Positions 2,155 through 44,370 of a DNA stretch of 47,289 nt are shown one piece after another; position 1 is the stretch's first letter, and each line of letters begins with the position of its first letter. The notes below the pieces were generated by a model. It was not told the DNA's origin. It made no database searches and worked only from the letters and a program-made list of their open reading frames with translations. Location of the stretch: positions 1-47,289 of the forward strand of contig JAJRSF010000032.1 in NCBI GenBank assembly GCA_024278935.1, read 5' to 3'. This DNA comes from Candidatus Zixiibacteriota bacterium (GTDB lineage Bacteria > Zixibacteria > MSB-5A5 > GN15 > FEB-12). The position numbers and the translations under genes are program-made.

Positions 2155-3135
2155 CTAATATGAAAATACAATTATCTTCGATGCTTTGGCGTCAGTTATA
2201 AAAACCTGTTTCTGAATTACATCAATAGCAATACCGGTGGGAGATACTAAACTTGAATCAGATGGGTACGAATTAATATATTTCCCTATCGGACTATACA
2301 AATGTACCTGTTTGTTATTTACATCCAAAGCATGTAGTCTTCCTTGATTTCGAATACCACTCGGGTCAAACGAAGTTTCATCCTTTTTTAACATCTCAAT
2401 ATCAACAATATTATCAAATGCAAATGCTTGAATAGCTAATTTTGTATCAGTTGTTATCGAATCAAATTGATACACATAATTTCCATCACAGGTGAAAACA
2501 GAAATATTACCCGAAGCAGCATCGCCAACATATAACCTTCCGTCACTTGAAATTGTAACAGCCGATGGGAATTGAATTTTGTGCGAGCTGTCTTTCGGAA
2601 TTGTGAGAATAAGTTCGCCAAATTCGGTTATATCTTTGGTGGTAGTCAAAGATACTGCCAAGACAGATTTTTGCAAGATGTCGGTTATATAGGCAACACC
2701 ACGATAGACAATAATATCAAATGGAAATAGTTTTATAAAATTATCCGGCATAGAACCAAACGAGCTGATTACTTTTCCATCTCTGCTATAAAGTATGACT
2801 CTGTTCTTTCTGTTTTCAGTAACAAGCATAGATGAGTCAGTTATGTGAAACGATGTAGGGATAACAGTGTCGAGATCTGTCAGTGGAATTGATGAAAGGA
2901 AATTCAGATTCAAATCATACATCTCTATCTCTGGTTTATTTAAAAAAGAGACAAACAGTGTATCTCTGAAATTTCGAATTCTATTCGGTTGATCACCATT
3001 TTCAAAAAGTTTTGTTTTCGAAAAAGACGGAGCCTGACTATACCAGTCAATCTTCTGATCTTCACCACAAGAAAAACAGAGAGTTGATAAAATTATAATA
3101 AAAAGAACGAGTCTATAAGTCACAATATTCCACAT
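2155..3135 (-). CDS. Six-bladed beta-propeller (NHL-like) exported protein
   Basis: The 326-residue product has an N-terminal hydrophobic segment ending in CFSCGED, an imperfect lipobox that could make it a lipoprotein. The rest is a run of beta-propeller blades of NHL/6-bladed type: repeated patterns such as VTENRKNRVILYSRDGKVISSFG, GRLYVGDAASGNISVF and GIAIDVIQKQVFITDAKASKIIVF. These folds are binding scaffolds rather than enzymes in most cases. It is the most distal gene of the cytochrome cluster, 88 bases after the pentaheme cytochrome, so it is probably co-transcribed with it. No good Shine-Dalgarno precedes the ATG; a GTG five codons in, with GGA upstream, is an alternative start. Confidence 0.75.
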   Translation of the reverse strand: MWNIVTYRLVLFIIILSTLCFSCGEDQKIDWYSQAPSFSKTKLFENGDQPNRIRNFRDTLFVSFLNKPEIEMYDLNLNFLSSIPLTDLDTVIPTSFHITDSSMLVTENRKNRVILYSRDGKVISSFGSMPDNFIKLFPFDIIVYRGVAYITDILQKSVLAVSLTTTKDITEFGELILTIPKDSSHKIQFPSAVTISSDGRLYVGDAASGNISVFTCDGNYVYQFDSITTDTKLAIQAFAFDNIVDIEMLKKDETSFDPSGIRNQGRLHALDVNNKQVHLYSPIGKYINSYPSDSSLVSPTGIAIDVIQKQVFITDAKASKIIVFSY

Positions 3136-3223
3136 ATGAAAAATTAATATTTGTCTTGAATAATTTCAGATATTACACGAGCGAAGTCAACCAATTTACT
3201 GTTTACAAAGCGACAATTAAAAA

Positions 3224-3925
3224 CTACGGCCCGTCAACAGTACCTGAATTTGAATCGGTATAATGTACACCATGACAACTAGTACATTTCATAGTTGAAC
3301 CTGCACCAAAAACGTAATCGTTTGATGTGTTACCATCAGATGGCTGCGGGTTGCCGTCGGTATCAAGCGGTGGATTATGAAATGTCGATGTCGCAGGAAG
3401 AGCTACGCCAACAGGATGTGAAAGCGGACTACCAGTGTAAGTTTTTACCGATGTCTGGTTGCGACTACGATGACAATCTATACAAAGTTGATCAGCCGAG
3501 TTATCCATACGTAAAAATGGAGGGTTACTATTTGAGTGTGGGTCATGACAAGTTGCACAGGTGACTTTTCCATCTTTAGTGATATGAGCTAGAAGTTCAG
3601 GGTCTTGCGGTTGATTGGCCCCTAATCCTGTATTGGCAGTATCAACATCCCAAGCGTGTGAAGTACCGGAAACACCTGGTTGTGCTTTTATCGACGACGA
3701 AAAATATTTAGACATACCCGTCCAACCACCTGGGGTATGACAGGAAAGACAGAGAGTAGAAATCAGAGCATCGGTTGAGTTAATTAATATATCTCCAAGA
3801 GACGAGTGAGTCACATGGCACTGTTCGCAATTTATGCTAGCCGCAGAACCATGGGGGTCATCGAGTGCCATCACCGAAATGGTAAAGGTCAAAAGAAGAA
3901 TAATTGTCAGTAATATTTTTAACAT
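3224..3925 (-). CDS. Pentaheme c-type cytochrome (doubled-CXXCH family)
   Basis: The 233-residue protein has a signal peptide (to about ...SVMA-LDDPHG) and five heme-binding motifs in order: CEQCH, CLSCH, CATCH, CIDCH, CTSCH. The patterns CxxCHxxH (CHVTH, CHDPH, CHGVH) are those of the doubled-CXXCH family, in which nearby His residues give bis-His heme ligation. It is expected in the periplasm or on the cell surface, carrying electrons. It starts 9 bases after the sorting-domain propeller gene ends, so the two are co-transcribed. The C-terminus (DSNSGTVDGP) is short and ends right after the fifth heme; related proteins can be longer, but I see no lesion here. Confidence 0.88.
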   Translation of the reverse strand: MLKILLTIILLLTFTISVMALDDPHGSAASINCEQCHVTHSSLGDILINSTDALISTLCLSCHTPGGWTGMSKYFSSSIKAQPGVSGTSHAWDVDTANTGLGANQPQDPELLAHITKDGKVTCATCHDPHSNSNPPFLRMDNSADQLCIDCHRSRNQTSVKTYTGSPLSHPVGVALPATSTFHNPPLDTDGNPQPSDGNTSNDYVFGAGSTMKCTSCHGVHYTDSNSGTVDGP

Positions 3926-3934
3926 AATCAGAAC

Positions 3935-5446
3935 CTATTTTAGGAGTACCATTTTTTTAGTCTCAACAAATTCACCGGCTGTGAGTCGATAGAAATAAAT
4001 TCCTGTTGCCGCTTGTTGACCTTGTTTGTTTTTACCTGCCCAGATGATTGAATGCTCTCCGGTTGGTAACGAGTTATTTATAAGTGTAGAAACTAATTGT
4101 CCGTTTAAATTAAAAATCTCAAGCTGTACATCCGACTCTTTTGCTAATGAAAACTGAATTTTCGTAGTTGGGTTAAATGGATTCGGATAATTTTGTGACA
4201 AGCTAAAGGTCACAGGTAGCGATGAAGTCGAGAACATCTGGAATGTTGACCAATCATAAACTGAATCAAGCGTATGCACTCTTGTACGCCATTGGAAATC
4301 TGTCTCTTCCAAAAGTTTTTCAGTCAGAAGCCAATGGGCAGTATACGAAGTAACTTGTTTTAACGAATCATAAGTTTGTTTTGCCACAACATTGTAACTT
4401 GATTGTGCAATTTCTTCTACGTTATCTTGTGCGTAAATCTCAAAATCAAATAATTTAATTTCTGTGAGAAGAGTTGTCGTTGCCGATGCAAAGAATTCTA
4501 AATTGTCAATTGATACAACCGCATCAGATTCAGGACGAAGTTGTTCCATGCTGACAGCGTTAGTTTCAGATGCCGATGCGGCGATATGAAACATCTGTAT
4601 TTTCGAACTTTCTGTCGAGACAACATATAACAGATTGTTTTCATCAATAGTAAGACCGAGCGGTGTATTAAAACTGACATCCACATTTTGGTTCGGAATC
4701 ATATCAAGGTATCTTCCGTCGGCTGAAAAAATTGAGACTCGGTTTTGGTATCTGTCAGTTATAAAAACTAACCCGTCGGAGTTGACAGAAATCTCACCAC
4801 CTCGAGTAATTTCACCTTCTGATCCACCATAGGCACCAAATTTTTTCAAATACGTGCCATCTGGTTTAAAAATCCAAATTTCAGATTTCAATTGGTCAAA
4901 CAGATAGAAATTGCCATTGCTACTGTTTTTGGCAAAGCTGTTAGGGTAAGAAATTTGAGTACCATCATCTTTTTGTAACATTATGATTTTCTTTAAAACT
5001 TTTTGTTTATCAAAAATGATAATCTGTTTTTCATCGGCATCTAAAATTGAAAAATCGGCATCAATAATAATATCAATAGGAAGATTAAATTCATAAATGT
5101 TTTCAAAATAATCAGATTGTTCGTCTGAACCTAGATTGGCATAAGCAATAATTCGGGCATCTAAGTCGCAGTAGAGATATTCATTGTCTGAAAGTTTGCT
5201 GATTGAATTTGCATCGCCTGTTATGTGTAACTTATGTTGCAAAAGTCCATTCGGTGTGAAAACTTTCATCTCTTTAGAAAATGGTTCCAACACGGTCAGG
5301 CTATTTCCATCAACAGTAATAGATGTTGGGGCTACCAGATCACTTTCAAGAGAACCGATATATTCTATTTCAACGGCAGAAATAGTTTGTGCCATAAAAA
5401 TCATTAAAGAACAAATTAGTAATATTTTTATTGTAAGTTTTTTCAT
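3935..5446 (-). CDS. NHL beta-propeller protein with type IX-style C-terminal sorting domain
   Basis: The 503-residue protein has a signal peptide (ending QTISA-VE), NHL-type propeller blades over about residues 25-290 (for example GLVFITDRYQNRVSIFSADGRYL and GLTIDENNLLYVVSTESSKIQMF), an Ig-like linker (about 300-410), and a C-terminal FlgD-like domain (about 415-503). This begins with SLSQNYPNPFNPTTKIQFSL and ends in TGIYFYRLTAGEFVETKKMV. That C-terminus is the classic sorting domain of type IX secretion substrates and of many FCB-group surface proteins. It is therefore expected outside the cell, alongside the cytochromes encoded on both sides. The ribosome-binding site is GAAGGTGAT about 8 bases before the ATG. 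A role as surface scaffold for cytochromes is inference. Confidence 0.88.
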   Translation of the reverse strand: MKKLTIKILLICSLMIFMAQTISAVEIEYIGSLESDLVAPTSITVDGNSLTVLEPFSKEMKVFTPNGLLQHKLHITGDANSISKLSDNEYLYCDLDARIIAYANLGSDEQSDYFENIYEFNLPIDIIIDADFSILDADEKQIIIFDKQKVLKKIIMLQKDDGTQISYPNSFAKNSSNGNFYLFDQLKSEIWIFKPDGTYLKKFGAYGGSEGEITRGGEISVNSDGLVFITDRYQNRVSIFSADGRYLDMIPNQNVDVSFNTPLGLTIDENNLLYVVSTESSKIQMFHIAASASETNAVSMEQLRPESDAVVSIDNLEFFASATTTLLTEIKLFDFEIYAQDNVEEIAQSSYNVVAKQTYDSLKQVTSYTAHWLLTEKLLEETDFQWRTRVHTLDSVYDWSTFQMFSTSSLPVTFSLSQNYPNPFNPTTKIQFSLAKESDVQLEIFNLNGQLVSTLINNSLPTGEHSIIWAGKNKQGQQAATGIYFYRLTAGEFVETKKMVLLK

Positions 5447-5460
5447 AATACAATCACCTT

Positions 5461-5642
5461 CTAATACCGTGCCGGACTATGGGCATGGTTATGGCAGGAC
5501 AAATAACAACTGCCGCTATTTATACCGGTAGAACTATATTGAATCAAGCTTGTAGCAGGGTCTCTTTGACCGCTTCTTTATTAAACGCAATCAAGTGATT
5601 ATTGTTTTGCGAAGAATGCGAAGCGTGACAAGTATAACATTA
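5461..5642 (-). pseudogene. Broken 3' end of the upstream hexaheme cytochrome gene
   Basis: Directly after the TAA stop of the 5640-6524 gene, the same frame reads on as CYTCHASHSS...NHLIAFNKEAV and ends at a TGA near 5548. One frame over, the sequence continues SLIQYSSTGINSGSCYLSCH, then NHAHSPARY and stop at 5461-5463. C-x-L-x-CH followed by an H, a few residues and Y at the very end is how many doubled-CXXCH cytochromes finish. So this is the original C-terminus, cut off by one nonsense codon (5640-5642) and one frameshift (about 5545-5552), removing two heme sites. An assembly error is the main alternative. Confidence 0.75.
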
Positions 5643-6524
5643 TGTTCCCGGGATTCCTTTTAACGGATCACCAACGATATGTTCTTTATGTAACGGGAAA
5701 GATTCGTTTGATAAAATAGATGCTCTGCTATGGCATGAATAACAGAATTCATAGGCATACGAAGATTCATCCATTATAGGTTCGATATCATAATTACCAC
5801 TTAACAAAAATCTATTATTGGAACCATGAGGACCTCTTGGTCCATTCGGATCATCGTTGGTGTGGCATGCACTACATTTCATAACGTTGCCGGGACCAAG
5901 TGCTTTTGTCAACGATGCTGACTTGCCGCCGGTTGTTGATGCTTTGGTCACAGGATGCTGCGATTGGTTTATCAGTGAAAATTGTTTATAGGCATTACTT
6001 GAAGATGTCTGTACTTCGTTTCTGTCAACATGACATTTAAAACAAACTTCATACTCACTTGATGAACTTTCCAAATATTGTCCTGACAAAGAATACCCTT
6101 TGACTTCAAAATATTTCTGTGAACCTACTTGTGATTTTTGATGCGGGTTGTGACAGTCTACGCATTCGGCATGATTAATCTCATTCGATGTCGAGTAGGG
6201 GAGTTGTTCATCAGGAGAATGTCCAAAACCGTCAACAACAGGATGACGGTACACTTTCTGAAATTCGTTGGCAATGTTACCAAGTTGTGCAGTTTGTGAA
6301 AGCTTGCCCGCTGCTTTCATCTCATTCTGTTGTAGTTCTGTACCATGACATTGATAACAAAAATCTTCTTCCGATTTTGCAAGCATCGGTTCATTGGATT
6401 TCCCATGACCAACATGACATGAACCACATCCTTCTAAAAGGTCTGTAGAATTAATATGCGAATATATATCTGTTTGCATCAACAAAGCAGAAAGAAGGAT
6501 TACACTAAGGACTATTTTTTTCAT
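5640..6524 (-). CDS. Hexaheme c-type cytochrome, C-terminally truncated
   Basis: I choose the ATG at 6524 (MKKIVLSVILLS) because GAGG lies 8-9 bases upstream and it opens a signal peptide; in-frame upstream codons overlap the preceding gene. The 294-residue product has six heme motifs: CGSCH, CYQCH, CVDCH, CFKCH, CSACH and CYSCH, with several CxxCHxxH pairs. It stops at LKGIPGT, immediately before an in-frame CYTCH, and a further heme site lies beyond a frameshift, so the ancestral protein carried about eight hemes. It follows the tetraheme gene by 11 bases. Whether the shortened protein works is unknown; six hemes could still form a wire. Confidence 0.8.
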   Translation of the reverse strand: MKKIVLSVILLSALLMQTDIYSHINSTDLLEGCGSCHVGHGKSNEPMLAKSEEDFCYQCHGTELQQNEMKAAGKLSQTAQLGNIANEFQKVYRHPVVDGFGHSPDEQLPYSTSNEINHAECVDCHNPHQKSQVGSQKYFEVKGYSLSGQYLESSSSEYEVCFKCHVDRNEVQTSSSNAYKQFSLINQSQHPVTKASTTGGKSASLTKALGPGNVMKCSACHTNDDPNGPRGPHGSNNRFLLSGNYDIEPIMDESSYAYEFCYSCHSRASILSNESFPLHKEHIVGDPLKGIPGT

Positions 6525-6535
6525 ATACATTACCT

Positions 6536-7171
6536 CTAATAACTGTGACATGAGACACACACAGCATCAAATGTTGATTTATTCCAAAACGGATATTTTT
6601 CTGATTTCGAATCATCATGTGGATCATGACAAGCCGTACATTGCACATACCCATCGGCATCGGTACCTACGATTTTTTCAGGGTCTTGCGGAGGCCACCG
6701 AAGATGATTGTCTGTAAGTGCCAAACTCTGTTCGTACTTTACAGAAACAGGATGCGTCCCGGAAAGGTCTAAGCCGACATTAGAACTTTTAGATACCGGT
6801 ATCTCCCCACCCGGACCGACGTTGTTCATCTTTATCGGTCTGGTAACACCTTTGATAGCACCAACTGCGATAGTACCGTCATGACAAGAAAGACAAAGTT
6901 TGGTGGCACCGTTTGGTTGTTCAGCTTTGCTGTCCATAGTCGAACGTTGATAAGTCTGAGCTTTACTGTTTGATGTCTCATGGTTCCAGAGAGGTCCTTC
7001 ATTAGAAGTGTTATGAGAACTATGGCAGAATATGCAGACTCTTGTTTCCGAAGTTGCTTTAATATCTCCGGGACCTGTGACAGAAAGGTTATGTTTTGAA
7101 TTAAGAACCGAAACTGCCCAGGCAGATGTGCATATTGTTATAAGACATAAAAGTGTTATTACTTTTTTCAT
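6536..7171 (-). CDS. Tetraheme c-type cytochrome (doubled-CXXCH), copy 1
   Basis: The 211-residue protein has a signal peptide (ending TSAWA-VSV) and four motifs: CIFCH, CLSCH, CTACH, CVSCH. It shares a distinctive pattern with the 10539-11204 protein: CxFCHxxHN, LWNHETSN, QTYQRSTMD, then LCLSCHDGTIAVG, a later HPVSVKY, and CTACHDPHD near the end. The two are therefore paralogues. AGGGGAT precedes the ATG, which overlaps the stop of the upstream propeller gene by 4 bases (ATGA), showing translational coupling. Likely a periplasmic or surface electron carrier working with the propeller protein of the same unit. Confidence 0.88.
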   Translation of the reverse strand: MKKVITLLCLITICTSAWAVSVLNSKHNLSVTGPGDIKATSETRVCIFCHSSHNTSNEGPLWNHETSNSKAQTYQRSTMDSKAEQPNGATKLCLSCHDGTIAVGAIKGVTRPIKMNNVGPGGEIPVSKSSNVGLDLSGTHPVSVKYEQSLALTDNHLRWPPQDPEKIVGTDADGYVQCTACHDPHDDSKSEKYPFWNKSTFDAVCVSCHSY

Positions 7172-8145
7172 TTTTTATCCCCTAAATAGTGGAATATCTG
7201 TATTCTATTATTAAAAGTATCGGCTATATATATAGTGTCATTTTGTATTTCAATTCCTGCCGGTGACCAGAACTGTCCTTCGGCTTGCCCGCGAGAACCA
7301 ACAGCAAGAAGAAGCTTGCCGTCTTGCGTAAATATCTGAAAATTGTCAGCGAGATTATCAACAACATAAATATGTTTCTCAGAATCAACAGCGATTCCTT
7401 TTAAACGGCTGAAAGTTCCTGGACCGGACCCTTCCATACCAAACGACTGCGTCAAAGTACCATCTGTTTGCAGAGTTCGGATTTTATAGTTTAAGGCGTC
7501 GTTGACTAAAAGTTTGTCATCTGTATGAGTGACAAAAGTAGGGTAGTGAAAAATTGCGGAATCATCGGCACTCGGAATTCGATTTATAAACTGACCGTCA
7601 AGACTAAACATTTTGAGACAATGATCACCTGTGTCAACGATACATAATTTCTTTTCCGAAGGTAAATAAGTTAATCCGGTTGGACGGGAAAGATTTTCAG
7701 TTATAAACGGCTGCAGTTTTTTATCTTTATAGATATAGACAGTTTTGTTTTCGACATCGGTGACATAGACATTTCCGTCAGTATCTGCACATAGCCCTAA
7801 TGGATATATAAATGGGTTATCTTTGTCAGTGATAAATTTAAATTCGTTGCTAACCCGATTTATTTTAATCAAAGCCTGAATATTTTGGCAGGTAAGAAAA
7901 ATAGATTCATCGGTCACGGCTATATCAAACGGTAGCGAGAGAGTTTCATTGTCATCGTTGCCGGTAAACAATCTTCCGATTTTCCCAAAGAAACCGGCTT
8001 CTATTGATAACTTTGAACATTCTATATTACCAATGTATTGTAACTTTGCTTCATCAGGAGCAGGAGGCCAAACCAGACCATCGTTACTCGCCGAAGCAAG
8101 GTTGGTACAACATAAAAGCATGAGTGTTATCAATAGTTTTCTCAT
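7168..8145 (-). CDS. NHL-repeat beta-propeller exported protein, copy 1
   Basis: The 325-residue protein has a signal peptide (MRKLLITLMLLCCTNLASA) followed by VWPPAPDEAKLQYIG and then six NHL-type blades, such as GNVYVTDVENKTVYIYKDKKL, GIAVDSEKHIYVVDNLADNFQIF and GIEIQNDTIYIADTFNNRIQIF. The start of the mature protein (WPxAPxxxKxxYxxxI, then a GFFGKIGRLFTG-like stretch) matches the 11219-12238 protein, so these are paralogues. The gene overlaps the beta-barrel stop by one base (TAATG) and the tetraheme start by four. It is most simply read as a dedicated partner of that tetraheme cytochrome; NHL propellers usually act in binding. Confidence 0.87.
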   Translation of the reverse strand: MRKLLITLMLLCCTNLASASNDGLVWPPAPDEAKLQYIGNIECSKLSIEAGFFGKIGRLFTGNDDNETLSLPFDIAVTDESIFLTCQNIQALIKINRVSNEFKFITDKDNPFIYPLGLCADTDGNVYVTDVENKTVYIYKDKKLQPFITENLSRPTGLTYLPSEKKLCIVDTGDHCLKMFSLDGQFINRIPSADDSAIFHYPTFVTHTDDKLLVNDALNYKIRTLQTDGTLTQSFGMEGSGPGTFSRLKGIAVDSEKHIYVVDNLADNFQIFTQDGKLLLAVGSRGQAEGQFWSPAGIEIQNDTIYIADTFNNRIQIFHYLGDKK

Positions 8146-10529: not shown

Positions 10530-10538
10530 CGGATACCT

Positions 10539-11204
10539 CTACTTAATATGACAACGCAAACAAAGTTGCGAGTTGGAGTTATCTTCAACAAGGAAATTCG
10601 AATAAGTATTGTCATGTGGATCATGGCAGGAAGAACATTCTACATATAGTCCTTCAGATAGAAGTTTGTCAGGATTGTTTGTAGGGATACCAGTTTTTGT
10701 GTGAAAATTACCGACATCCTGCGATGCATCATAGGTAATACCAACCGGGTGATCATTGGTCAGATCAGTCCCAACATATGCATGTGAACTGGCAGTCAGT
10801 CTACCGGTTCCATCCAGATTAGATCCTCCCGGAGAACCATAACTACCTGCTTGATCCTGACCCGGTAAGTTATTCAAAGAATTTACCGCGATAGTACCAT
10901 CGTGACAGGATAGACAAACTAGCGAACCTTTGTGTGGTTGTGCTGACTGAATCATATCCATCGTATTGGAAGTATACATAATGTATGTCTGAGATTCGTT
11001 GGTCTCATGGTTCCAGAGTGCAGCACCCAAGGTTTGGTTTCCATTATGAGGAGTATGGCAGAAAACACAAATCTGTCTTGTGCCGACAAAGTATGCATTT
11101 TTACTATAGGTACTCGATGTAAAGTTATGTGGTGTTGTATCAACTCCTGCCCAAATTAGTACAGGCAGAATCAGTAAAAATAAAGTTATTGAATATTTTC
11201 TCAT
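10539..11204 (-). CDS. Tetraheme c-type cytochrome (doubled-CXXCH), copy 2
   Basis: The start is the ATG at 11204 (MRKYSITLFL), with AGGAG 7 bases upstream. The 221-residue protein has a signal peptide (ending LIWA-GVD) and motifs CVFCH, CLSCH, CSSCH and CLRCH. It shares with copy 1 the CxFCHTPHN opening, ALWNHETNESQTY, STNTMD-like and CLSCHDGTIAVNS segments, a mid-protein HPVGITYD and a final CSSCHDPHDN. It lies 9 bases before the beta-barrel gene and 14 bases after the propeller gene, completing a propeller-tetraheme-barrel order. Probably periplasmic, feeding or draining the barrel-associated conduit. Confidence 0.88.
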   Translation of the reverse strand: MRKYSITLFLLILPVLIWAGVDTTPHNFTSSTYSKNAYFVGTRQICVFCHTPHNGNQTLGAALWNHETNESQTYIMYTSNTMDMIQSAQPHKGSLVCLSCHDGTIAVNSLNNLPGQDQAGSYGSPGGSNLDGTGRLTASSHAYVGTDLTNDHPVGITYDASQDVGNFHTKTGIPTNNPDKLLSEGLYVECSSCHDPHDNTYSNFLVEDNSNSQLCLRCHIK

Positions 11205-11218
11205 AATAATTCTCCTTG

Positions 11219-12238
11219 TCATTCTGTCGTTGCGAGGTATTTAAATACCTGAATTCGTCTGTTCACAGAATCGGCTATATAAATATAATCATTTTTATCA
11301 ATAAAAATTCCGGCAGGTAATTGAAACTGACCGGGGGCATTGCCTACTTCACCAAATCGAAGCAGAAGTTCTCCTTGACCATTATAAATCTGAACATTGT
11401 TACGCATTGCATCGGTTACATAGATATTACCTTCTGAATCAATAGCAATATCTCTCGGACGTGCCATCGGACCAATGCCTTTTTTCTTTGGACCAAAGCT
11501 AAACAGGAAATTCCCATCTATGTCAAATGCCTGTACTGCAAAATGGAAAGCATCAACAACATAGATCGTATCATTCTCGTTGATTTGTACGGTCATTGGG
11601 AAATGAAATTCACCCTGTTCATCGCCACGTTTTCCAATTGTTCGTAAGTAAGTTCCATCTTTTTGATAAATCGCCACACGGTGTCCACGGGTATCAACTA
11701 CAAAGAGCTCGGTTTCATCATTGTTGAAAGCTAAGCCGACAGGTGCTTCTAATGTTTTTTCGTCACCTATAAAATGCAGGAACTTAAATTCTTTATCAAA
11801 AACAACTACTTTCTTTAATTCGGTATCTGACACATAAATATTACCGATTTTATCTAATATAACATAAACAGGTTCACGTAAAGTGCCATATTTTCCGAGT
11901 GAATAGAAAAAATTCGATGTTCCCAATTTAAAGTCAAATACTAAAATTCCTTTTTTAGAAGTATCCGCGATATACAGTTTTGATTTTGTCTCAAAATTTA
12001 TTCCGTATGGTTTACCGATAGGAGTTGGTTTTGCTTTGCCAATAAAGAAATCACGAATCTGCCCCAGGAACGAACGTTTGAGATTCTCGCTCCCATAAAT
12101 TGACTTAACATATTTAATACGAGGCTTCTGTGGTGCTTTTGGCCACGACATATCTACCGACTCTTTTGGAGGATGAGAGCAGCCAACAAATGCAAGCAAT
12201 AAGCTAAAGATGATAATGTTCAGTTTCATATAACTCAT
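11219..12238 (-). CDS. NHL-repeat beta-propeller lipoprotein, copy 2
   Basis: I take ATG 12236-12238, which overlaps the stop of the decaheme gene (ATGA); a second ATG three codons on is also possible. The lipobox is LLLAFVGC-S, so the protein is predicted lipid-anchored. The mature part begins with SWPKAPQKPRIKYVKSI and contains six NHL blades: GNIYVSDTELKKVVVF, TELFVVDTRGHRVAIYQKDG, DTIYVVDAFHFAVQAFDIDG, GNIYVTDAMRNNVQIYNGQG and DYIYIADSVNRRIQVFKY are typical. It is paralogous to the 7168-8145 protein but lipid-anchored rather than only secreted, so the two copies may sit on different membrane faces. Confidence 0.88.
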   Translation of the reverse strand: MSYMKLNIIIFSLLLAFVGCSHPPKESVDMSWPKAPQKPRIKYVKSIYGSENLKRSFLGQIRDFFIGKAKPTPIGKPYGINFETKSKLYIADTSKKGILVFDFKLGTSNFFYSLGKYGTLREPVYVILDKIGNIYVSDTELKKVVVFDKEFKFLHFIGDEKTLEAPVGLAFNNDETELFVVDTRGHRVAIYQKDGTYLRTIGKRGDEQGEFHFPMTVQINENDTIYVVDAFHFAVQAFDIDGNFLFSFGPKKKGIGPMARPRDIAIDSEGNIYVTDAMRNNVQIYNGQGELLLRFGEVGNAPGQFQLPAGIFIDKNDYIYIADSVNRRIQVFKYLATTE

Positions 12239-13338
12239 AATACGTCCGTATGGCATCCTATACAAGTGAACTCTTCGGTTATACGAAGTAAATGGTCAGA
12301 ATTATTCGCATGCGGGTTGTGACAGGAAATACATTCTAAATTCCCATTATCATTTAACTCGACATTTACTTTTAGTTTTCTTTTTGGTTTTACATTATAT
12401 GGATGCGAATGCCATGTCATTTTATTGTCTGGATTATGACAACCAAGACAAACTTCTTCGGAGTTCTGAACCAATACCCATTTATTAGATGTTGAGTGAG
12501 GATCATGACAAACACCACACTGACCTTGTTCAAATGGATTGTGTTTGACCCGACTATTTCTTGTGTTTTCTTCTAAGTCTTCATGACAGGAAAAACAAAG
12601 TATCTGCTCAGGGGTTACTAAATTATGTTCATAGATGGAACCGTGGGGTTCGTGACAAATATTACAGCTTCCACCTGCAACAGGACCGTGGATATAGTCT
12701 TGAGAAAATAGCCCTATCCTATCAGTATGGCAATTAAAACAGAGATTGGTTTCATCCGCTGCTGTTGTAAATCCAACCTTGTCCTTAAACTGTTGATGAC
12801 AATTTACACAAACTCGCTTATCATCTTTGGTATGTTTTTTAATCTTATCTTTTAAAACTACATGACAGCTTAAACATCCTTGATCAGTAGATAAAGAATC
12901 TATACTATTATAAGTCTCTGTATGACATTTATCGCAAGCATCAGTTTTTTTAGTCTCGTGGAAAAAATATGGGGTATATATTTTTTTAAATTTTTTATGA
13001 ATTTCAGGACCGTACATAATATCAATTTTTGCTTTATGTGCGACAGCATCAGATTGACCGGAATAAATTGGAATAATTGTAACTTCGTTGACCCCATAAC
13101 CATAAGTTATAGAGGCATGGAAGATAGAATCTTTCACTAAAAGATCAAAAAGTTTTTCATCGTTAAGAAAAATTTCAACTATCGGTGCGTCGGTTTTACC
13201 GACAATATATATCTGTTCTGATTGAGCAGAAATAAATGCAGGAGGTGTTAAAATCTCAAGCATGTTTTCAGCCAGAACTACTTGTGAAAAAACAGTCCCC
13301 GCAATCAAAATTAGTATGATAAGTATCTTCTTGTTCAT
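12235..13338 (-). CDS. Decaheme c-type cytochrome with N-terminal Ig-like segment
   Basis: The start is the ATG at 13338 (MNKKILIILILI), opening a signal peptide ending VVLA-ENM. Residues about 25-130 carry no Cys and look like a beta-sandwich (Ig-like, with EILTPP, YIVGKTDAPIVEIFLND and VNEVTIIPI). Then ten motifs follow: CDKCH, CLSCH, CVNCH, CFNCH, CNICH, CFSCH, CGVCH, CLGCH, CISCH, CIGCH, several as CHEPHG or CHDPH pairs of the doubled-CXXCH family. The Ig-like module may bind a partner or the cell surface. The Shine-Dalgarno is weak, and a transcription terminator lies just upstream, so this and the following genes may be expressed by readthrough or from a promoter I cannot define. Confidence 0.88.
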   Translation of the reverse strand: MNKKILIILILIAGTVFSQVVLAENMLEILTPPAFISAQSEQIYIVGKTDAPIVEIFLNDEKLFDLLVKDSIFHASITYGYGVNEVTIIPIYSGQSDAVAHKAKIDIMYGPEIHKKFKKIYTPYFFHETKKTDACDKCHTETYNSIDSLSTDQGCLSCHVVLKDKIKKHTKDDKRVCVNCHQQFKDKVGFTTAADETNLCFNCHTDRIGLFSQDYIHGPVAGGSCNICHEPHGSIYEHNLVTPEQILCFSCHEDLEENTRNSRVKHNPFEQGQCGVCHDPHSTSNKWVLVQNSEEVCLGCHNPDNKMTWHSHPYNVKPKRKLKVNVELNDNGNLECISCHNPHANNSDHLLRITEEFTCIGCHTDVL

Positions 13339-13351
13339 CTCATTATTTCTT

Positions 13352-13388
13352 ATAAAAAGGCAGAGTCCCGGCAAAAGCCCGGACTCTG
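13352..13388 (-). terminator. Rho-independent terminator after the major cytochrome gene
   Basis: A 12-base stem (CAGAGTCC-GGC type, one mismatch) with an AAAA/TTTT loop spans 13361-13388 and is followed in the minus direction by CCTTTTTAT. It sits 44 bases after the stop of the 13432-14580 gene. Confidence 0.85.
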
Positions 13389-13431
13389 TCAATAATTTAA
13401 TTTAACACTTAAATCTTAAAGATTGTTATCC

Positions 13432-14580
13432 TTAGTTAGCAGAATGACAAGATTGACATAATTGGTTAGTTAAACCGTTTTCATGTCTTAAGAAATAAGC
13501 AGCGTCGACACCAGCATTACCAGCTCTATGAACAGAGTGACATGTTTCACATACCATCATGTTAGCTGTAGCGCCAGCCCAGTCAGCACCAGCAGAACCA
13601 TCTTCATCAATTTGGTTTGCCCATGGAAGTGCAGGGGTTAGACCATTGTTCATTGCGATGTCAGTTGGAACACCAGTATAGTGAGTGTTACCACCAACAG
13701 GAGGAGCACCAGCTGCATTATGACATGAAGTACAGAATGCTGAGTTAGTGTTGTCTGCTATTAGTAAGTAACCAGTAGCTGTAGCGGCAGGATCATGAAC
13801 GTCATGACAAAGATTACAACCATCAGTTGGTGTTAAACCAGCTGTTGAGATTGTAGGATGCATTTGTTCTGTACCGTCAGCTATAGCTTCAGCATAATCA
13901 AATACGTCAGAAGCAGCTTGACCACCGGAACCAGCAACAGCAACAGCTGGAGCAGAACCATTATGACAGCTAATACAGAAAGCGCCATAATATGCACCAG
14001 GTTGGTTGTCAGCTAACAAAATAGGGTTAGTTAAACCAGCTGGGTTAGTTGTTTGAGCGGTAGCACCATGAGGAGTATGACACTGTACACAAGTAAATGT
14101 TCCACCGTTTGTAAAGTGGGTGATACCTGCAGTGTGATCGCCAAGACCTTCAGCACCAGAAAATGGTGTAGAACCATGACAAGTTTCACAATAGTTACCA
14201 TTTGTTTCAGTAACAACTAAGAATTTACCTGAGTTGTTAGGGTTTTGTGTATGTACATCATGACATGCACCAGCACCAGAACAGTCACCACCAACAGCAG
14301 CATGTTGTTCTAAAGCTGCGTTGAAAGCAGTTGCGGTACCAACAGTTGTGATAGAACCATCATGACAAGTGTAACATAAATCTTGAACACCTGTGAAAGT
14401 TCCAGATGGGGTAGAACCCCAAAGATTAGCACCAGCAGCATTATGCGGTGTATGACATGCAAAACAAAGCTGTGTTCCGGAACCAGTTAAATCATGGTCT
14501 GAGCCGGATACAGCTGCGAATGCGGACATTGGTACGCTAAGAATAGCGATAGCAATGACAAGGGTGAATAATTTTTTCAT
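13432..14580 (-). CDS. Nine-to-ten-heme extracellular cytochrome, likely highly expressed
   Basis: The 382-residue protein has a signal peptide (ending MSAFA-AVSG) and nine CXXCH motifs: CFACH, CYTCH, CETCH, CVQCH, CISCH, CNLCH, CTSCH, CETCH, CQSCH. Between the second and third lies C100-SGAGA-CH107, a CX5CH site followed by DVH, exactly where a heme would be expected. The protein is unusually rich in Ala, Gly, Thr and Asn, the DNA is less AT-rich than its neighbours, and the gene has a full AGGAGGT Shine-Dalgarno and a private strong terminator; together these suggest an abundant secreted product. Size and heme number resemble surface cytochromes that polymerise into filaments, but that is speculation. 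Confidence 0.88.
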   Translation of the reverse strand: MKKLFTLVIAIAILSVPMSAFAAVSGSDHDLTGSGTQLCFACHTPHNAAGANLWGSTPSGTFTGVQDLCYTCHDGSITTVGTATAFNAALEQHAAVGGDCSGAGACHDVHTQNPNNSGKFLVVTETNGNYCETCHGSTPFSGAEGLGDHTAGITHFTNGGTFTCVQCHTPHGATAQTTNPAGLTNPILLADNQPGAYYGAFCISCHNGSAPAVAVAGSGGQAASDVFDYAEAIADGTEQMHPTISTAGLTPTDGCNLCHDVHDPAATATGYLLIADNTNSAFCTSCHNAAGAPPVGGNTHYTGVPTDIAMNNGLTPALPWANQIDEDGSAGADWAGATANMMVCETCHSVHRAGNAGVDAAYFLRHENGLTNQLCQSCHSAN

Positions 14581-14657
14581 ACCTTAATACCTCCTAAGAG
14601 TACGATGATGTTGTAATTACAATGGTGAAATTTAAAATGTATTAAATTCACTTTTTC

Positions 14658-16205
14658 TTATCCAATCTTAAATACTAATAATTGATGAGGGACACGGTTA
14701 ACAATATACCAGCGACCATCTTTAATAAACATTCCACGAGGAGTCAGCAAAATATTTTCAGTATCATCAAATGTTGTGATTGCTGATTTTACTACTCCGT
14801 CAGGTGAGAAAATTTGTACAATATTGCCTAATCCATCTGAAATCCATAAACGACCATCTGTGTTTTCAATGATTGCTTTTGGACGACCGAAGGTGCCGGC
14901 TGATTGACCTGGTTCGCCAAATTTACGGATAAATTTACCGTTTATATCAAATTGTTGCACACGGCAGTTGATAACATCTATAACAGAAATAATATTATCT
15001 TTTGATACTGAAATACCATCAGGGAAAATAAACTGAGAATCTTCAGCACCACGAGAACCTACTTCAAACAGAATTTTTCCTGTTTGGTCAATTTTCATAA
15101 AGCGATGATTACCGGCATCGGTTACAACCAAATTGCCATCATCCAAAACAACGATACCATTAGGTCTAAAACCTTCTTGCTCGTCAGTTGTATTTATTCT
15201 TATACGTTTTACAAATTCACCTTCATTGGTAAACACTTGAATATCATGATTCATAATATCAGAAATATAGAGATTATCTGATTTATCAATAGCCATAGCA
15301 AATGGGTATGAAAAAGTACCTTCACGAGCGACATCTTCTTTACCTGATTTAGTCTTTTCACCCCAAGAGAATAAGAACTTACCGGAATTATCATAACAAT
15401 GAATCTTACGGTTTAAAGCATCAGATATGAAAATTTGACCTTTAGAGTCAAGAACAACATCGGTAGGCTGATTCATATCACCTAAATTACCTGCTGTTTT
15501 AATATCAAATAAGAAAGTAAGTTTGGTGTCTTCTAAAACAATTCCGCTTTCGGCAGCTTCCATTGCCTTTTGTTCATCAATACTGAAACCATATTTAATT
15601 GATTCTTCTTCAGAATATTCTGTTTCTTCAAACTCTTCATTTAAAGCAGTCAAAACATAGTAGTATGTTTCACCTTTAACAGTGCCTTCTTTATCAGCAT
15701 ATTTTGTTGCTTGTGCAGAACCAACTAATTCATATTCTCCACCGGCAGTTTTAGCACGATAAATATTGTAAGCCATTGAACCGTCGACATCATCCCAGTT
15801 TAAAAATATTTTATTCCGGTCTACACGAATACCAACCCACGTAGGAGCTTTAAAAGCACCAGCCTTGGCGCCGGGAATAGTTATAGATTTTTCTGTTGAC
15901 ATAAGTTCACCGGAACCTGTGACAGCAGCAATTTTATACTTGTATACTGTGCCAGAAGAGACATCGGTGTCAAAATATTGTGTTTTTGAGGCAGTGGTGA
16001 GAACCGTAAATTCTCCACCTTCAGTAGAGCGATAAATCTTATACTCTGTAGTGCCTTCCATTGCTTTCCATTTTAGTCCGACTTTACCTTTTACAAAAAA
16101 TGCGCCAATCCAGCCCGGACCATCAGCGGCTAATGCAAAAGAGATAAAGCAGACGATTAACAAAAGAGATGTTAATACTACTTTGAAAATTGAGCGGTTA
16201 TGCAT
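14658..16205 (-). CDS. Exported protein with two FN3 domains and an NHL beta-propeller
   Basis: The 515-residue protein has a signal peptide (ending SFALA-ADG), two fibronectin type III domains (about residues 28-110 and 119-205, each with a YKIYRS- or YNIYRA-like strand and a YYYVLTALN- or YKYKIAAV-type strand), an acidic linker, and a six-bladed NHL propeller (about 228-515: GQIFISDALNRKIHCYDNSG, NLYISDIMNHDIQVFTNEG, LVVTDAGNHRFMKIDQTG, and so on). AAGGAA lies 6 bases before the ATG. It precedes the major cytochrome gene by 77 bases with no terminator between, so they are probably co-transcribed. FN3 modules suggest it works outside the cell, perhaps holding the cytochrome at the surface. 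Confidence 0.88.
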   Translation of the reverse strand: MHNRSIFKVVLTSLLLIVCFISFALAADGPGWIGAFFVKGKVGLKWKAMEGTTEYKIYRSTEGGEFTVLTTASKTQYFDTDVSSGTVYKYKIAAVTGSGELMSTEKSITIPGAKAGAFKAPTWVGIRVDRNKIFLNWDDVDGSMAYNIYRAKTAGGEYELVGSAQATKYADKEGTVKGETYYYVLTALNEEFEETEYSEEESIKYGFSIDEQKAMEAAESGIVLEDTKLTFLFDIKTAGNLGDMNQPTDVVLDSKGQIFISDALNRKIHCYDNSGKFLFSWGEKTKSGKEDVAREGTFSYPFAMAIDKSDNLYISDIMNHDIQVFTNEGEFVKRIRINTTDEQEGFRPNGIVVLDDGNLVVTDAGNHRFMKIDQTGKILFEVGSRGAEDSQFIFPDGISVSKDNIISVIDVINCRVQQFDINGKFIRKFGEPGQSAGTFGRPKAIIENTDGRLWISDGLGNIVQIFSPDGVVKSAITTFDDTENILLTPRGMFIKDGRWYIVNRVPHQLLVFKIG

Positions 16206-16656
16206 GTTAAATTCCTTTTTTATAATCGAAACGTTTTTCTCTTACATTATGTTTTTATTGAGATAGCTTGTTACATTATTCACATTGATATAGGCAATTT
16301 CTATGCCGTCATCTTGTAATTCTCTATTTGTCATGTTTAATGAGATAAAAGCCGATGTTCTTGTGTTTAAAGGGCTATTCATGTTTATTCTCTGTTTCAT
16401 TTTGTGCAAAAGCCTTTTACTTTGTGACAGTTCCATGACATCATTGTGAAATAAATAACAAATAAATACGAATTTGTCAAGGAAATTATACCTATTATTA
16501 TCCTTTTTTCGGTTTTTTTTAAAGAAATTTAACGTCGAATTATTAATTATTTATAAAATTTGTAAGTCGATGGTACTTAAGGTTATACCAATACGTGTTA
16601 GTTGTTGTTCACTAACGAAACTTTATATATTTTTTTTGATATTATAAAAATATTGA
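16206..16656. other. Intergenic region / long 5' leader inside the cytochrome cluster
   Basis: About 450 bases separate the FN3-NHL gene from the 16-heme gene upstream. On the minus strand a TTGACA (16475-16480) with a weak TATTTA -10 (16452-16457) could start a leader of about 240 bases. That leader contains an open frame of 64 codons (16242-16436, minus) with no Shine-Dalgarno and no recognisable similarity. I looked for a c-di-GMP (GEMM) riboswitch core and did not find one. The 16490-16656 part is very AT-rich with no hairpin terminator that I can support. Confidence 0.4.
16452..16480 (-). promoter_or_regulatory. Possible promoter for the FN3-NHL / major cytochrome unit
   Basis: TTGACA (16475-16480, minus) with a 17-base spacer and a poor TATTTA -10. 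The -35 is perfect, the -10 is weak, so this is tentative. Confidence 0.35.
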
Positions 16657-17913
16657 CTATTTTTGGAGAAAATGTGGAGAATAACAGGAAATGCAAGAAA
16701 CATCAGATTTCGAAAGTGTGCTATGACTTCCATTTGGTTCCGGCTGGTCATGACATTCCAAACAGAGATCATTACTTCTTAAATCAGAAACTGAACGGTC
16801 TTCATGGCATGACTCACAGTCACCATCATCAAACGGTGCATGCGGAGTCGAGTAGAATAACTTCTCTACAGATGAACCATGCGGATTATGACAAGACGCA
16901 CAGTTTTGAATTTCAAAATCGACAACATGGGTAGTTTTAAAATCATCGTCGTCAGCATCATGGCAATTAGTGCAGAGGTCCGGTTGGATTTCCACTAAAA
17001 CTCCGCCATGCGGATCGTGACAAGTCACACAGCCGTCATCAACAGCCGCATGAGGGAACTCAAGTTCAAGCAGTTCTTCAATATCAGAATGGCAGGTGAA
17101 GCAAAGCGATGGGGTTTCGTCGGTCAGATATTTCCCGTCTTTTTCAAAATGAGGATCGTGACAAATTGTGCAAGACTCATCTTCTAATACGGTATGTTTT
17201 TTCTCACCGGTGACTTTTTCTGTAAGGTCTTCATGACAACCTAAACATAATTCGATAGAGCTGTTTTTCAATAATGCGGAATGTTCAGAACTATGTCCTT
17301 CGTGACAATTATTACAGGAATTTTCATCATCGGCAGTATGTAGATTATCCGGGGCAAAACCATCAATTATAGTTTCATGACACTCAAGGCATTGGTAAGC
17401 TATCGGCATCTGAAACGAAGTACCAAACATGGAGCCATGCGGGGAGTGACATTTAATACAATTACCATCTTTATATGGCATATGAATTATACCCTCAGCT
17501 TCAGTCGGGTCATCGTGACATTCAATACAGAGTTCTTTTACCGGTGCTGTTAAAAGCATCTTATTATCAGATGCGTGCGGCGTGTGACAGGCGAGACAGC
17601 TTGTTTCATCTAAGAGTGGGGCATGGATATCATCTTCTTCGAGATAATCTAATGTCGTGTGACAGTCAGTGCAGAGGTTTACAATTTCATCTTTAAATTC
17701 AATTTGGTTTCGAAATCCGTGAAATTGATGACAGGCTTCGCAATTTTTTTTCTCAAATGGCTGATGATTGTTCTTTTTTTCTCGTTCTTTATAAAACTTC
17801 GGATGGCATTCCAGACACGTCTTTTCCTTATCATCTTTTGCTATTCCCATCGAAGAGAATAGCAATAAAGAGAAAATTATAAGAATTACTGTCTGTTTAC
17901 CAAATTTTTTCAT
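16657..17913 (-). CDS. Sixteen-heme c-type cytochrome (with a seventeenth, degenerate site)
   Basis: The 418-residue protein has a signal peptide (ending SSMGIA-KDD) and sixteen CXXCH motifs: CLECH, CEACH, CTDCH, CLACH, CIECH, CIKCH, CLECH, CNNCH, CLGCH, CTICH, CFTCH, CVTCH, CTNCH, CASCH, CESCH, CLECH. They alternate as single CxxCH and CHxPH pairs roughly every 20-25 residues, the doubled-CXXCH layout, with very little sequence between hemes, so the protein should be a dense linear heme wire. A last site reads CISCYSPH: the heme-ligating His (codon 411) is Tyr. The protein is acidic (many Asp/Glu). It starts 11 bases after the LolA-like gene, and AAAGGT precedes the ATG. Probably periplasmic, bridging to the outer membrane. 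Confidence 0.9.
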   Translation of the reverse strand: MKKFGKQTVILIIFSLLLFSSMGIAKDDKEKTCLECHPKFYKEREKKNNHQPFEKKNCEACHQFHGFRNQIEFKDEIVNLCTDCHTTLDYLEEDDIHAPLLDETSCLACHTPHASDNKMLLTAPVKELCIECHDDPTEAEGIIHMPYKDGNCIKCHSPHGSMFGTSFQMPIAYQCLECHETIIDGFAPDNLHTADDENSCNNCHEGHSSEHSALLKNSSIELCLGCHEDLTEKVTGEKKHTVLEDESCTICHDPHFEKDGKYLTDETPSLCFTCHSDIEELLELEFPHAAVDDGCVTCHDPHGGVLVEIQPDLCTNCHDADDDDFKTTHVVDFEIQNCASCHNPHGSSVEKLFYSTPHAPFDDGDCESCHEDRSVSDLRSNDLCLECHDQPEPNGSHSTLSKSDVSCISCYSPHFLQK

Positions 17914-17924
17914 TTTTATTACCT

Positions 17925-18746
17925 TTAATGTGTTTTATCTGAACTCATTAATACTGACTCAGGCGTAAATTCATTTTCTTTTAGTATCGGATTTATTTCA
18001 ATGTTTGTTACTACTGATTTGGCAACTAATAAACCCATTGAAATATTTTCTAAACTATGAGGAAAAACAAAACCGTCGACTTTTTTGAAATTATCAAAAT
18101 AATTCACAAAGACAAAGGTATTGGTGTCTTGATAAATAACACCTTCAGCATATTTGATAAAATGAGTTTTATTGTCGATGCCTAAAACAACCATAAGGGA
18201 ATCATTCTTTTTCATATAGATATATGAAAGAGTATCATTATTGCGGGTACCATATCTCATTTCAGAAAATGGTTCTGTTTGCATAGCCAGTGGCATAGAA
18301 AGAGTTAAATAGCTAAATAGTTCGGCTTTATATTTTCCGGAAAAGAGAACAAGAGTTGTATCTCTGCCAATAAACCATGATTTGGCACCATCAATAATAC
18401 GAGCTTCAATTGCCGGTTTTTGATGACGGATAATTTTATACTGACGTTTGTTGGTGTATGTTTTTTCAACGGTAATATCTTTGGCACTTAAAAATACTTC
18501 CATAAAATATTGAATTCTGCAAGAAGACAGGTTTTTCAAATGTTCGACTCCACCATAGGCAGCGATACAATCTTCGATTAATTTTTGACCTGCTTCTGAT
18601 TTTTCAACAGAAGTTGCTGCAGTATATAGTGAATCGTAATTGAATTTTTCTATAGCAGCTTTTTGACCGTGGAAATTATCAAATGCAGTAACAGTACCAC
18701 CTGCGAGTAAGACAATAACGAGTAAGAGTAATATTTTTTTATACAT
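17925..18746 (-). CDS. Exported LolA-like beta-sheet protein
   Basis: The start is ATG 18746 (MYKKILLLL), with AAAGGA 6-7 bases upstream, opening a signal peptide (ending GGTVTA-FDN). The 273-residue product has the AYGGVEHLKNLSS pattern followed by long strand-rich segments (KTYTNKRQYKIIRHQKPAIEARI, KSWFIG, a late GFVFPHSLENI) as in outer-membrane lipoprotein carrier/LolA-like and related periplasmic half-barrel proteins. The family assignment is by pattern only. It sits between the thioredoxin-like and 16-heme genes in one operon, so a job in delivering lipid-anchored components of the cytochrome system is possible but unproven. Confidence 0.6.
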   Translation of the reverse strand: MYKKILLLLVIVLLAGGTVTAFDNFHGQKAAIEKFNYDSLYTAATSVEKSEAGQKLIEDCIAAYGGVEHLKNLSSCRIQYFMEVFLSAKDITVEKTYTNKRQYKIIRHQKPAIEARIIDGAKSWFIGRDTTLVLFSGKYKAELFSYLTLSMPLAMQTEPFSEMRYGTRNNDTLSYIYMKKNDSLMVVLGIDNKTHFIKYAEGVIYQDTNTFVFVNYFDNFKKVDGFVFPHSLENISMGLLVAKSVVTNIEINPILKENEFTPESVLMSSDKTH

Positions 18747-18826
18747 TGTATATCCTTTCATTTTTCTTATACAAAGTTTGGACAAATATAGTCACAATTA
18801 AAAATGAACCAACAGGTTTTTTCCTT

Positions 18827-19945
18827 TTAAGGAAATATAATATCCCCTGATGTCATAAAAGTTTGCACTGCGGACTTTTTATTTCCAACCAATGTATATA
18901 ATAGTGCTTGCTGAAAAAGTGCTTTCGGGTGGTTGCTATAATGTAGTAAAATATAATCAAGATGTATTTGGGCATTTTCAGATTGATGCATATCAAGATA
19001 GCAATCGACTAAAAGAAAACGTGTTTCTAAATTTGTACTGTCTCTTTTAATTACTTTGTTTAAGAGTTCAGCGGCTTCATTATATTCTTTTTTACGAATA
19101 AGATTTCGGCTTATGAGTAGTTGCGGAAAAAGTAATGTCGAATCAATATCTGATACTATATAGGTGAGTTCGACAGCTTTTTCATATTGGGCTAACTCAT
19201 ACCGAATAACAGACTCTAACAAGTATGGCTGCAAATATAATGAGTCGTTGACTTGGGCTTGCTTTAAATTGTCAAGAGCTTGCTCATAAGAGCGTTGTCC
19301 AAAAAGTTTAAAAGCAGCGTTATAAAATCGTAATGCTTTTTTTACCGGTTTATATCTGTCATCAGAAACGATGACTATTTCTGATGACCTGCCCAGAAGT
19401 GAATCGAGCGAATCTATCAAATGATCCTGTGCAGTGAGGGAGAAGCTGGAAAATAGAAAGCGAATGACTACAATTTTGTCGGTAATAATTGTCGAGGGAA
19501 CCGCTATCAACCCAAAAGCATCTGCAATCTTGTTTCGCTCATCTCTTAACACAGGTATAGAAATATTGTTTGATTTTAAATAAGTGTTTAAATTAAAACT
19601 GTTCAACCGACCGGTATAGATAGAAAGATATTGCACCGTGCTGTCTTGGAGGTCGTCTGATAAGTCTTGTAAAAATTGCAATTCTTCAATTGAACGCCCG
19701 GACCATTCTGCCCAAAAACAGATTAAAATTATCTTTTCATCCTGGATGAACTTATCTGTTGAAATTTTCTCAAGAGAGATAACATCTTTTCCTTGCAATT
19801 GAGGCAACTGATCACCTATAAGCAGATTCTGAAATGAAGCGTCGACCCTTTGAAACGAAAAAACTGCTACTACAATAGAGCATAGAATCATCAATATTGT
19901 ACTTTTGGCAATGTTTTTCTCTTTTGAAATATTCAATTTACACAT
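18827..19945 (-). CDS. Cysteine-less thioredoxin-fold / TPR exported protein
   Basis: The 372-residue protein has an N-terminal hydrophobic segment (about 16-32), then a TlpA/AhpC-like thioredoxin fold at about 38-185 (IGDQLPQL, IILICFWAEWSGRSIEELQFLQDL, ...IPVLRDERNKIADAFGLIAVPSTIIT). The usual WCxxC is WSGRS here, so neither redox cysteine is present. The cis-Pro motif (VPST) remains. Residues about 205-365 form tetratricopeptide repeats (RSYEQALDNLKQAQVNDS, KEYNEAAELLNKVIKRDS). It cannot be a thiol oxidoreductase by the normal mechanism and is better seen as a binding protein, perhaps a cytochrome-assembly helper. It is the first gene of the 19945-16657 operon. Confidence 0.75.
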   Translation of the reverse strand: MCKLNISKEKNIAKSTILMILCSIVVAVFSFQRVDASFQNLLIGDQLPQLQGKDVISLEKISTDKFIQDEKIILICFWAEWSGRSIEELQFLQDLSDDLQDSTVQYLSIYTGRLNSFNLNTYLKSNNISIPVLRDERNKIADAFGLIAVPSTIITDKIVVIRFLFSSFSLTAQDHLIDSLDSLLGRSSEIVIVSDDRYKPVKKALRFYNAAFKLFGQRSYEQALDNLKQAQVNDSLYLQPYLLESVIRYELAQYEKAVELTYIVSDIDSTLLFPQLLISRNLIRKKEYNEAAELLNKVIKRDSTNLETRFLLVDCYLDMHQSENAQIHLDYILLHYSNHPKALFQQALLYTLVGNKKSAVQTFMTSGDIIFP

Positions 19946-40907: not shown

Positions 40908-41149
40908 TAATATACCTTTCTTAATAGTATAATTTAGAGAGCAAATTTTATGCCTGTCTGTTTTATTAATCCTTGATCAAAAAACTCATACAACACAACA
41001 AGATAACAAGTGGCAAATTTCCCCTTTTTATCGACTATAGCATACTGTTGCACTTAATCTGACAAGTTGAGTCTTTATACCGTTTGTTTGCAAATATTCT
41101 ATAAGATTGGTGGAGAAAAAAAATCTGCAACTTGGTAAAAGGAGATTCT

Positions 41150-43719: not shown

Positions 43720-43758
43720 AAAAATACACCTTCTCAGGAAACTAAAACTGAGAAGGTG
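43718..43758 (-). terminator. Terminator of the small PEP-CTERM gene
   Basis: CACCTTCTCAG and CTGAGAAGGTG (43727-43758) form an 11-base perfect stem, followed in the minus direction by TATTTTTTTTAT. Confidence 0.88.
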
Positions 43759-43784
43759 CGAATAAGGGATAAGTAAGGGGAAAT

Positions 43785-44126: not shown

Positions 44127-44370
44127 GCTTAATCCTTTGTTGTAAATAATTGCATTAACTTTATTTAATCTAAATGCAAAGGTTGTGCCGTCTCATGTGC
44201 GAAATTTATACAGACTGCTAAAACGAAGTATGACATCTGATTACTGCTATCTGAGAACTACAATTGCAATTTGTCTATGTCTTATGTTGCAGGAATGTAT
44301 GCAAAAATAATAGACAATTGATGTTGATTATATTCCCTACGGTTTTTATAGACTTTTAAATGGAGAAAAT

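Follow-up and report, generated by a model that had tools for sequence, protein, structure and literature searches.

A conserved Zixibacteria gene cluster with OmcE-family cytochromes, NHL propellers and a large outer-membrane barrel: a candidate apparatus for an extracellular cytochrome filament

The metagenome-assembled genome (MAG) of an uncultured deep-sea bacterium of the Zixibacteria (GCA_024278935.1; 3.4 Mb) carries a cluster of about 18 kb that combines multiheme cytochromes, NHL-type propellers and a single large outer-membrane barrel. The window analysed here is the stretch of 47,289 nucleotides of contig JAJRSF010000032.1, and the cluster occupies its positions 2155-19945 with 15 open reading frames (ORFs), all on the minus strand and either overlapping or separated by short gaps (Table 1). 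Two of the cytochromes are, by sequence, full-length homologues of the filament cytochrome OmcE, and the nature of the apparatus to which they may belong is the subject of this study.

Genes of the cluster and their OmcE-family cytochromes

Seven ORFs (C1 to C7) hold 5, 6, 4, 4, 10, 9 and 16 CXXCH motifs, 54 in total where 0.11 would be expected from composition, and five others (P1 to P5) match NHL or 6-bladed propeller models. The genome has six NHL (PF01436) matches; five of them, and the majority of its doubled-CXXCH matches, lie inside the window. A preliminary description of this DNA had listed the seven cytochromes with their 54 motifs, the five propellers, one of them with a type IX-style sorting domain, a 794-residue outer-membrane barrel and the compact arrangement on one strand, all of which is borne out by motif counts, family models (PF18962, TIGR04183) and an AlphaFold2 model. 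Its proposal of an extracellular electron transfer apparatus is likewise supported, and is narrowed by the OmcE-family identity of C4 and C3, which had been missed.

C4 matches 7tfs, the structure of the Geobacter OmcE filament (omcE, GSU0618), over its full length with E 6.4e-26, and 9yuq with E 4.4e-22; for C3, again with a full-length match to 7tfs, the values are 1e-19 and 2.6e-17. Eight histidines are invariant in an alignment of C4, C3, OmcE and 9yuq. Four belong to the CXXCH motifs, and H32, H59, H158 and H203 (C4 numbering), the sole invariant histidines outside these motifs, provide one distal ligand per heme. C4 thereby combines the two sequence features of an OmcE-type filament cytochrome, namely the bis-His four-heme pattern and full-length homology together with a place in the OmcE clade. 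In OmcE itself, one heme is ligated by a histidine from the adjacent subunit (PMC9473688). A plasmid search with C4 gave no match.

A genome scan yielded at least 80 OmcE-family loci, of which 80 were kept; the titles of their records mention at least eight phyla, with the caution that a MAG may be mislabelled. In a maximum-likelihood tree of 130 OmcE-family domains, 64 rows form one clade with 7tfs, 9yuq and the window C4 among them (support 100/93), and 62 rows form another, to which the window C3 belongs, outside the OmcE clade (support 100/96); four rows are intermediate between the two. Almost all rows of the C3 clade are fused to C2 or followed by it, the exceptions being two contig-end fragments and one long-branch row. 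It follows that the duplication behind this split is older than the dispersal of the system across these phyla. Because of the two clades, we propose that C4 is the nanowire subunit and that C3-C2 is a separate partner, possibly an adaptor or base unit.

Intact relatives of C2 have 355 aa with seven CXXCH motifs and a conserved terminal CX3CH (CYLSCH-type). In the window, an in-frame TAA followed by a frameshift cuts off the last CXXCH and the terminal CX3CH, so that the 54 motifs are those that can be read and not the ancestral set. C2 is intact in two sister genomes. In most other phyla C3-C2 is a single polypeptide, and domain maps show that the 11-heme protein found there joins a C3-like domain to a C2-like one. 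A PDB search with the intact C2 returned no relative.

Table 1. Features of the cluster, with their positions in the window and the evidence for each
Feature	Position	Strand	Evidence
P1: lipoprotein-like NHL propeller	2155..3135	-	family match; near operon in only some relatives
C1: 5-heme doubled-CXXCH cytochrome	3224..3925	-	motif count, family match, conservation
P2: NHL propeller with type IX sorting tail	3935..5446	-	PF18962, TIGR04183; tail kept in relatives
C2 C-terminal remnant past in-frame stop, with frameshift	5446..5640	.	tblastn of intact relative
C2: interrupted gene with six CXXCH still readable, 355 aa when intact	5640..6560	-	comparison with relatives
C3: OmcE-family tetraheme cytochrome, second (C2-linked) clade	6536..7171	-	7tfs match, tree; C2-fused in other phyla
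P3: exported 6-bladed NHL propeller, P4 subfamily	7168..8145	-	family match, subfamily comparison
Large outer-membrane beta-barrel, 794 aa	8145..10529	-	AlphaFold2 model, fold search
C4: OmcE-clade tetraheme cytochrome	10539..11222	-	7tfs and 9yuq matches, alignment, tree
P4: lipoprotein 6-bladed NHL propeller	11219..12265	-	N-terminal W-P-x-x-P...R-I motif; partner of OmcE-family genes
C5: 10-heme doubled-CXXCH cytochrome, N-terminal beta extension	12235..13392	-	motif count, family match, conservation
C6: 9-heme cytochrome	13432..14580	-	motif count; paralogue elsewhere in genome
P5: exported, FnIII-like domain and NHL propeller	14658..16205	-	conserved 41-85%
C7: 16-heme doubled-CXXCH cytochrome	16657..17913	-	PF09699 222.8 bits; conserved as first in operon
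286-aa exported protein, no Pfam match	17925..18785	-	conserved at operon start; LolA-like by eye only
Thioredoxin-like (AhpC/TSA) and TPR protein	18827..19945	-	family match, conservation

Conservation of the cluster, its barrel and its propellers

The conservation of gene order across genomes, set beforehand as the test of a genuine system, is found in related Zixibacteria, in Krumholzibacteria and in Eisenbacteria. In genomes that range from members of the same genus to a different family within the order, the arrangement C7-P5-C6-C5-P4-C4-barrel-P3-C3-C2-P2-C1 is kept gene by gene, and it is largely kept in the two other groups; the named records that carry it are MAGs of Zixiibacteriota, Krumholzibacteriota and Eisenbacteria. 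Within the phylum the distribution is patchy. Of 132 Zixibacteria genomes, 12 carry the barrel family, and each of these 12 also has an OmcE-family gene, which is present in 16 genomes in all (Fisher p 5e-14, the relatedness of the genomes being ignored).

The wider survey counted the 57 scanned loci that span 9 kb or more and contain an OmcE-family ORF. A propeller of the P3/P4 type, scoring at least 100 bits, lies within 6 kb at 54 of these, and a barrel-family ORF at 37, a count that pools several families since the hhalign links among the barrels are marginal. We rejected the idea that the barrels found at OmcE loci are all directly homologous, the matches being marginal and C-terminal only. 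The frequent order elsewhere is OmcE - NHL - 5-heme - 650-700 aa ORF - NHL - 11-heme protein, and two lipoprotein propellers per OmcE-type locus form the recurrent pattern. The rough equality of propeller and cytochrome numbers that had been pointed out earlier thus holds for the counts in the window (5 and 7) and fails as a general rule.

The AlphaFold2 model of the 794-aa ORF is an outer-membrane beta-barrel (predicted local distance difference test, pLDDT, 77.3; predicted template modelling score, pTM, 0.54) with about 26-28 membrane strands and a beta domain inserted at about residues 220-314. No Pfam or NCBIfam family matches it. MtrB (6r2q_B) is its nearest solved fold in both programs (Foldseek E 1.3e-8; VIA Z 18.0, 516 aligned, root-mean-square deviation 10.0), modestly so and with no match in a search with the MtrB model; since other barrels score close behind, we claim no more than a barrel of MtrB size that lacks a TonB plug. 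The identification as an unrelated TonB-type transporter, which the preliminary description had named as fatal to its proposal, is set aside because neither a plug nor a receptor model matches it and the strands start at residue 28 with no plug ahead. We also considered an usher-like topology, in which a beta domain interrupts the first part of the barrel, but the model is too uncertain for this to be used. A second model, of the 650-700 aa ORF from loci of other phyla, is a confident barrel (pLDDT 85.4) whose nearest solved fold is not specific. In a distant barrel (L094:6865-8979), the domain inserted at residues 425-499 has a match below cut-off to an NCBIfam phage tail-tube family (E 8e-8).

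Among the propellers, P2 presents both features of a cargo of the type IX secretion system (T9SS): a C-terminal type A sorting domain (PF18962, 35.6 bits, cut-off 27; TIGR04183, 45.7 bits, cut-off 23), which is retained in relatives, and a T9SS in the genome. The presence of the SprA translocon (569.8 bits at G000:C64) makes surface display plausible, and P2 is probably displayed on the cell surface. C7 is a probable periplasmic relay, while the thioredoxin-TPR protein plausibly serves thiol reduction for heme attachment. C6, for which a PDB search found no relative, has a solitary paralogue away from the cluster (L031:8395-9540, G000:C3; 572 bits). In relatives, C1 is usually followed by a giant cytochrome of 12-14 hemes, which is not adjacent to C1 in the window. 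Its relocated counterpart lies at L032:964-6642 (G000:C63) and encodes 1892 aa with 12 hemes and bacterial Ig domains, its C-terminus being C2-like; the terminal CX3CH of the C2 type also ends the giant cytochrome.

The genome further carries three secretins and, at L030:4653-9376 (G000:C9), a separate Mtr-like trio made of a DmsE/GSU2203-like decaheme cytochrome, a 509-aa ORF with a barrel-like start and a 13-heme cytochrome. Elsewhere in the window, positions 40152-40907 encode a 251-aa exported protein with a PEP-CTERM-like tail at its end (VPEPATMLLFGLGLLGGALQRRRKS), and portal-like, terminase-like and protease-like ORFs, recognised by eye only at 41132-45840, may be a prophage remnant.

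A filament with its own apparatus, and other readings

With a probability of roughly 70%, we read the cluster as the genes for an extracellular cytochrome filament of the OmcE type and for a dedicated apparatus that assembles, anchors and charges it. The doubled-CXXCH cytochromes C7, C5 and C6 would carry electrons through the periplasm, with the thioredoxin-TPR protein aiding heme attachment. C3-C2, with an OmcE-like tetraheme head and a seven-heme tail, could then act as a fixed adaptor that takes these electrons and presents a filament-compatible heme end at the barrel, from which C4 would polymerise outward. The constant co-location of the barrel with the lipoprotein propellers P3 and P4 suggests an outer-membrane gate or scaffold. 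P2, delivered by the T9SS, and the giant cytochrome encoded elsewhere in the genome would stand on the surface.

A more specific and more tentative idea, to which we give less than even odds, is that OmcE-type nanowires have a complex of their own for base and export, made up of C3-C2, P3 and the barrel. It would be ancient, present in many phyla and different from the osc system discussed below, and an OmcE paralogue would be its first, non-polymerising subunit. If true, it would answer how the filament plugs into the outer membrane. According to a 2025 review, the membrane anchoring of nanowires, their electron entry points and the cross-taxon conservation of their secretion are unsolved (PMC12307469). 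The compact recurrent set of an OmcE subunit, two lipoprotein propellers, a large barrel and a C2-linked OmcE paralogue, found in cultured and uncultured lineages, may show how OmcE-type filaments are anchored and exported, and its Geobacter homologues are accessible to deletion tests.

Several points weigh against the filament. Membership in the OmcE family by sequence is no proof of polymerisation, and a filament in any Zixibacterium is a prediction from the genes. What OmcE and OmcS filaments do physiologically is itself disputed (PMC11077965, PMC13194489). The match of the barrel to MtrB has a large deviation and scores only slightly above other barrels, and the barrel families of different phyla are weakly related in sequence (hhalign E 3e-5 to 3e-3). 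Finally, C2 is broken in the window genome, a lesion by which this copy of the cluster may be decaying or misassembled.

If C4 were a monomeric surface reductase or oxidase, the barrel might enclose C2-C3 or C5 in the fashion of MtrB and MtrA, giving a porin-cytochrome conduit through the outer membrane and no filament. The fold of the barrel and the decaheme-like cytochromes adjoining it would suit such a conduit. C7 and C5 do score against DmsE/MtrA-type models, but their 173 and 80 bits stay under the curated DmsE cut-off of 192.2 bits, at which the window holds no member of the DmsE/MtrA family. The place of C4 within the clade of filament-forming OmcE and the Mtr-like trio at another locus of the same genome also argue against the conduit, which we regard as unlikely.

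The same parts could run inward, taking up electrons from Fe(II), a cathode or a partner, as multiheme chains are reversible in principle and sequence does not set their direction. We hold this to be improbable, given that earlier work, as cited in PMC1829397, characterises OmcE as passing electrons outward to oxides and that no Fe(II)-oxidation marker was seen within the window. A decayed, non-functional locus kept by inertia in the window genome is very improbable. The stop and frameshift of C2 would agree with it, as would the location of the giant cytochrome and of a C7/thioredoxin set elsewhere in the genome; yet the other 14 ORFs are open, most of them sharing 60-90% identity with the sister-genome orthologues, and two lesions in one MAG gene that is intact in sister genomes could be an assembly error. 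A TonB-type uptake locus with incidental cytochromes has a negligible probability, for although TonB barrels score close to MtrB in fold searches, the plug is missing and the barrel family always accompanies the OmcE family across the 132 genomes.

Comparison with known systems

The earlier statement that no described system has this composition proves too strong in view of the osc operon, the D. ferrophilus clusters and the omcE locus with its NHL gene. In D. ferrophilus (DFE_0448-0465) and in SEEP-SRB1, multiheme cytochromes adjoin NHL or beta-propeller genes (PMC9769857, PMC12246660). In the text consulted, neither is given an OmcE-C3-C2-barrel arrangement. MtrCAB resembles the window in having an outer-membrane barrel of MtrB size adjoining multiheme cytochromes, whereas the window has many more cytochromes, propellers in addition, and no MtrC-type lipoprotein.

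The Geobacterales omcE locus reads ResB/CcsA-like genes - 10-heme - 8-heme - NHL - OmcE - (NHL) - 750-806 aa barrel-like ORF - glycosyltransferases, with an OmcE identity of 60% at the Geobacter-type locus examined. It shares with the window cytochromes of 8-10 hemes, an NHL gene of the P3/P4 subfamily and a barrel-like ORF of 750-800 aa. However, Zixibacteria hold C3-C2, P3 and more cytochromes and propellers in one operon, while in Geobacterales the P-C3-C2 module stands away from omcE, which is flanked by the ResB/CcsA and glycosyltransferase genes. OmcE filaments have been reported to be glycosylated, and the glycosyltransferase genes located after the barrel-like ORF in omcE loci of the Geobacter type (L136-L141) are consistent with this. 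At Geobacterales-like loci (L179-L182), P-C3-C2 directly adjoins a type II secretion/pseudopilus operon, with lon-clpX-clpP-tig alongside, a position which suggests that OmcE-paralogue modules are tied to secretion. This secretion region is presumably the oxpG/pul region of G. sulfurreducens. The oxpG/pul-type secretion system of that species exports OmpB (PMC3543383).

The Geobacter osc (omcS-companion) operon, described here after PMC13194489 and PMC12977616, unites a nanowire cytochrome with a propeller and channel proteins (PMC13194489). In the Geobacterales genomes that supplied the omcE comparison, the OmcS-type locus contains OmcS (6ef8, E 4.7e-98), an NHL protein, 16-heme and 26-heme cytochromes, a SurA/peptidyl-prolyl isomerase (PPIase), a CsgG/LpoB-like lipoprotein and a 775-aa ORF. 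The likeness extends from the nanowire cytochrome and the NHL propeller to the channel-like outer-membrane proteins and the large cytochromes, which match the C7 profile with 280 bits (16-heme) and 475-485 bits (26-heme). The subunit is OmcS there and of the OmcE type here, OmcS being found only in Geobacterales osc loci. None of the 15 window ORFs matches the rotamase (prolyl isomerase, OscH) that is present at the osc locus L185, and the CsgG-like lipoprotein is absent from the window cluster. The osc propeller (the OscD counterpart) belongs to another NHL subfamily (77-82 versus 200-300 bits), and the 775-aa ORF has no detectable sequence relation to the window barrel. Membership in osc was rejected on these grounds: the window cluster works like osc, with a subunit family, a propeller subfamily and a barrel that all differ from it.

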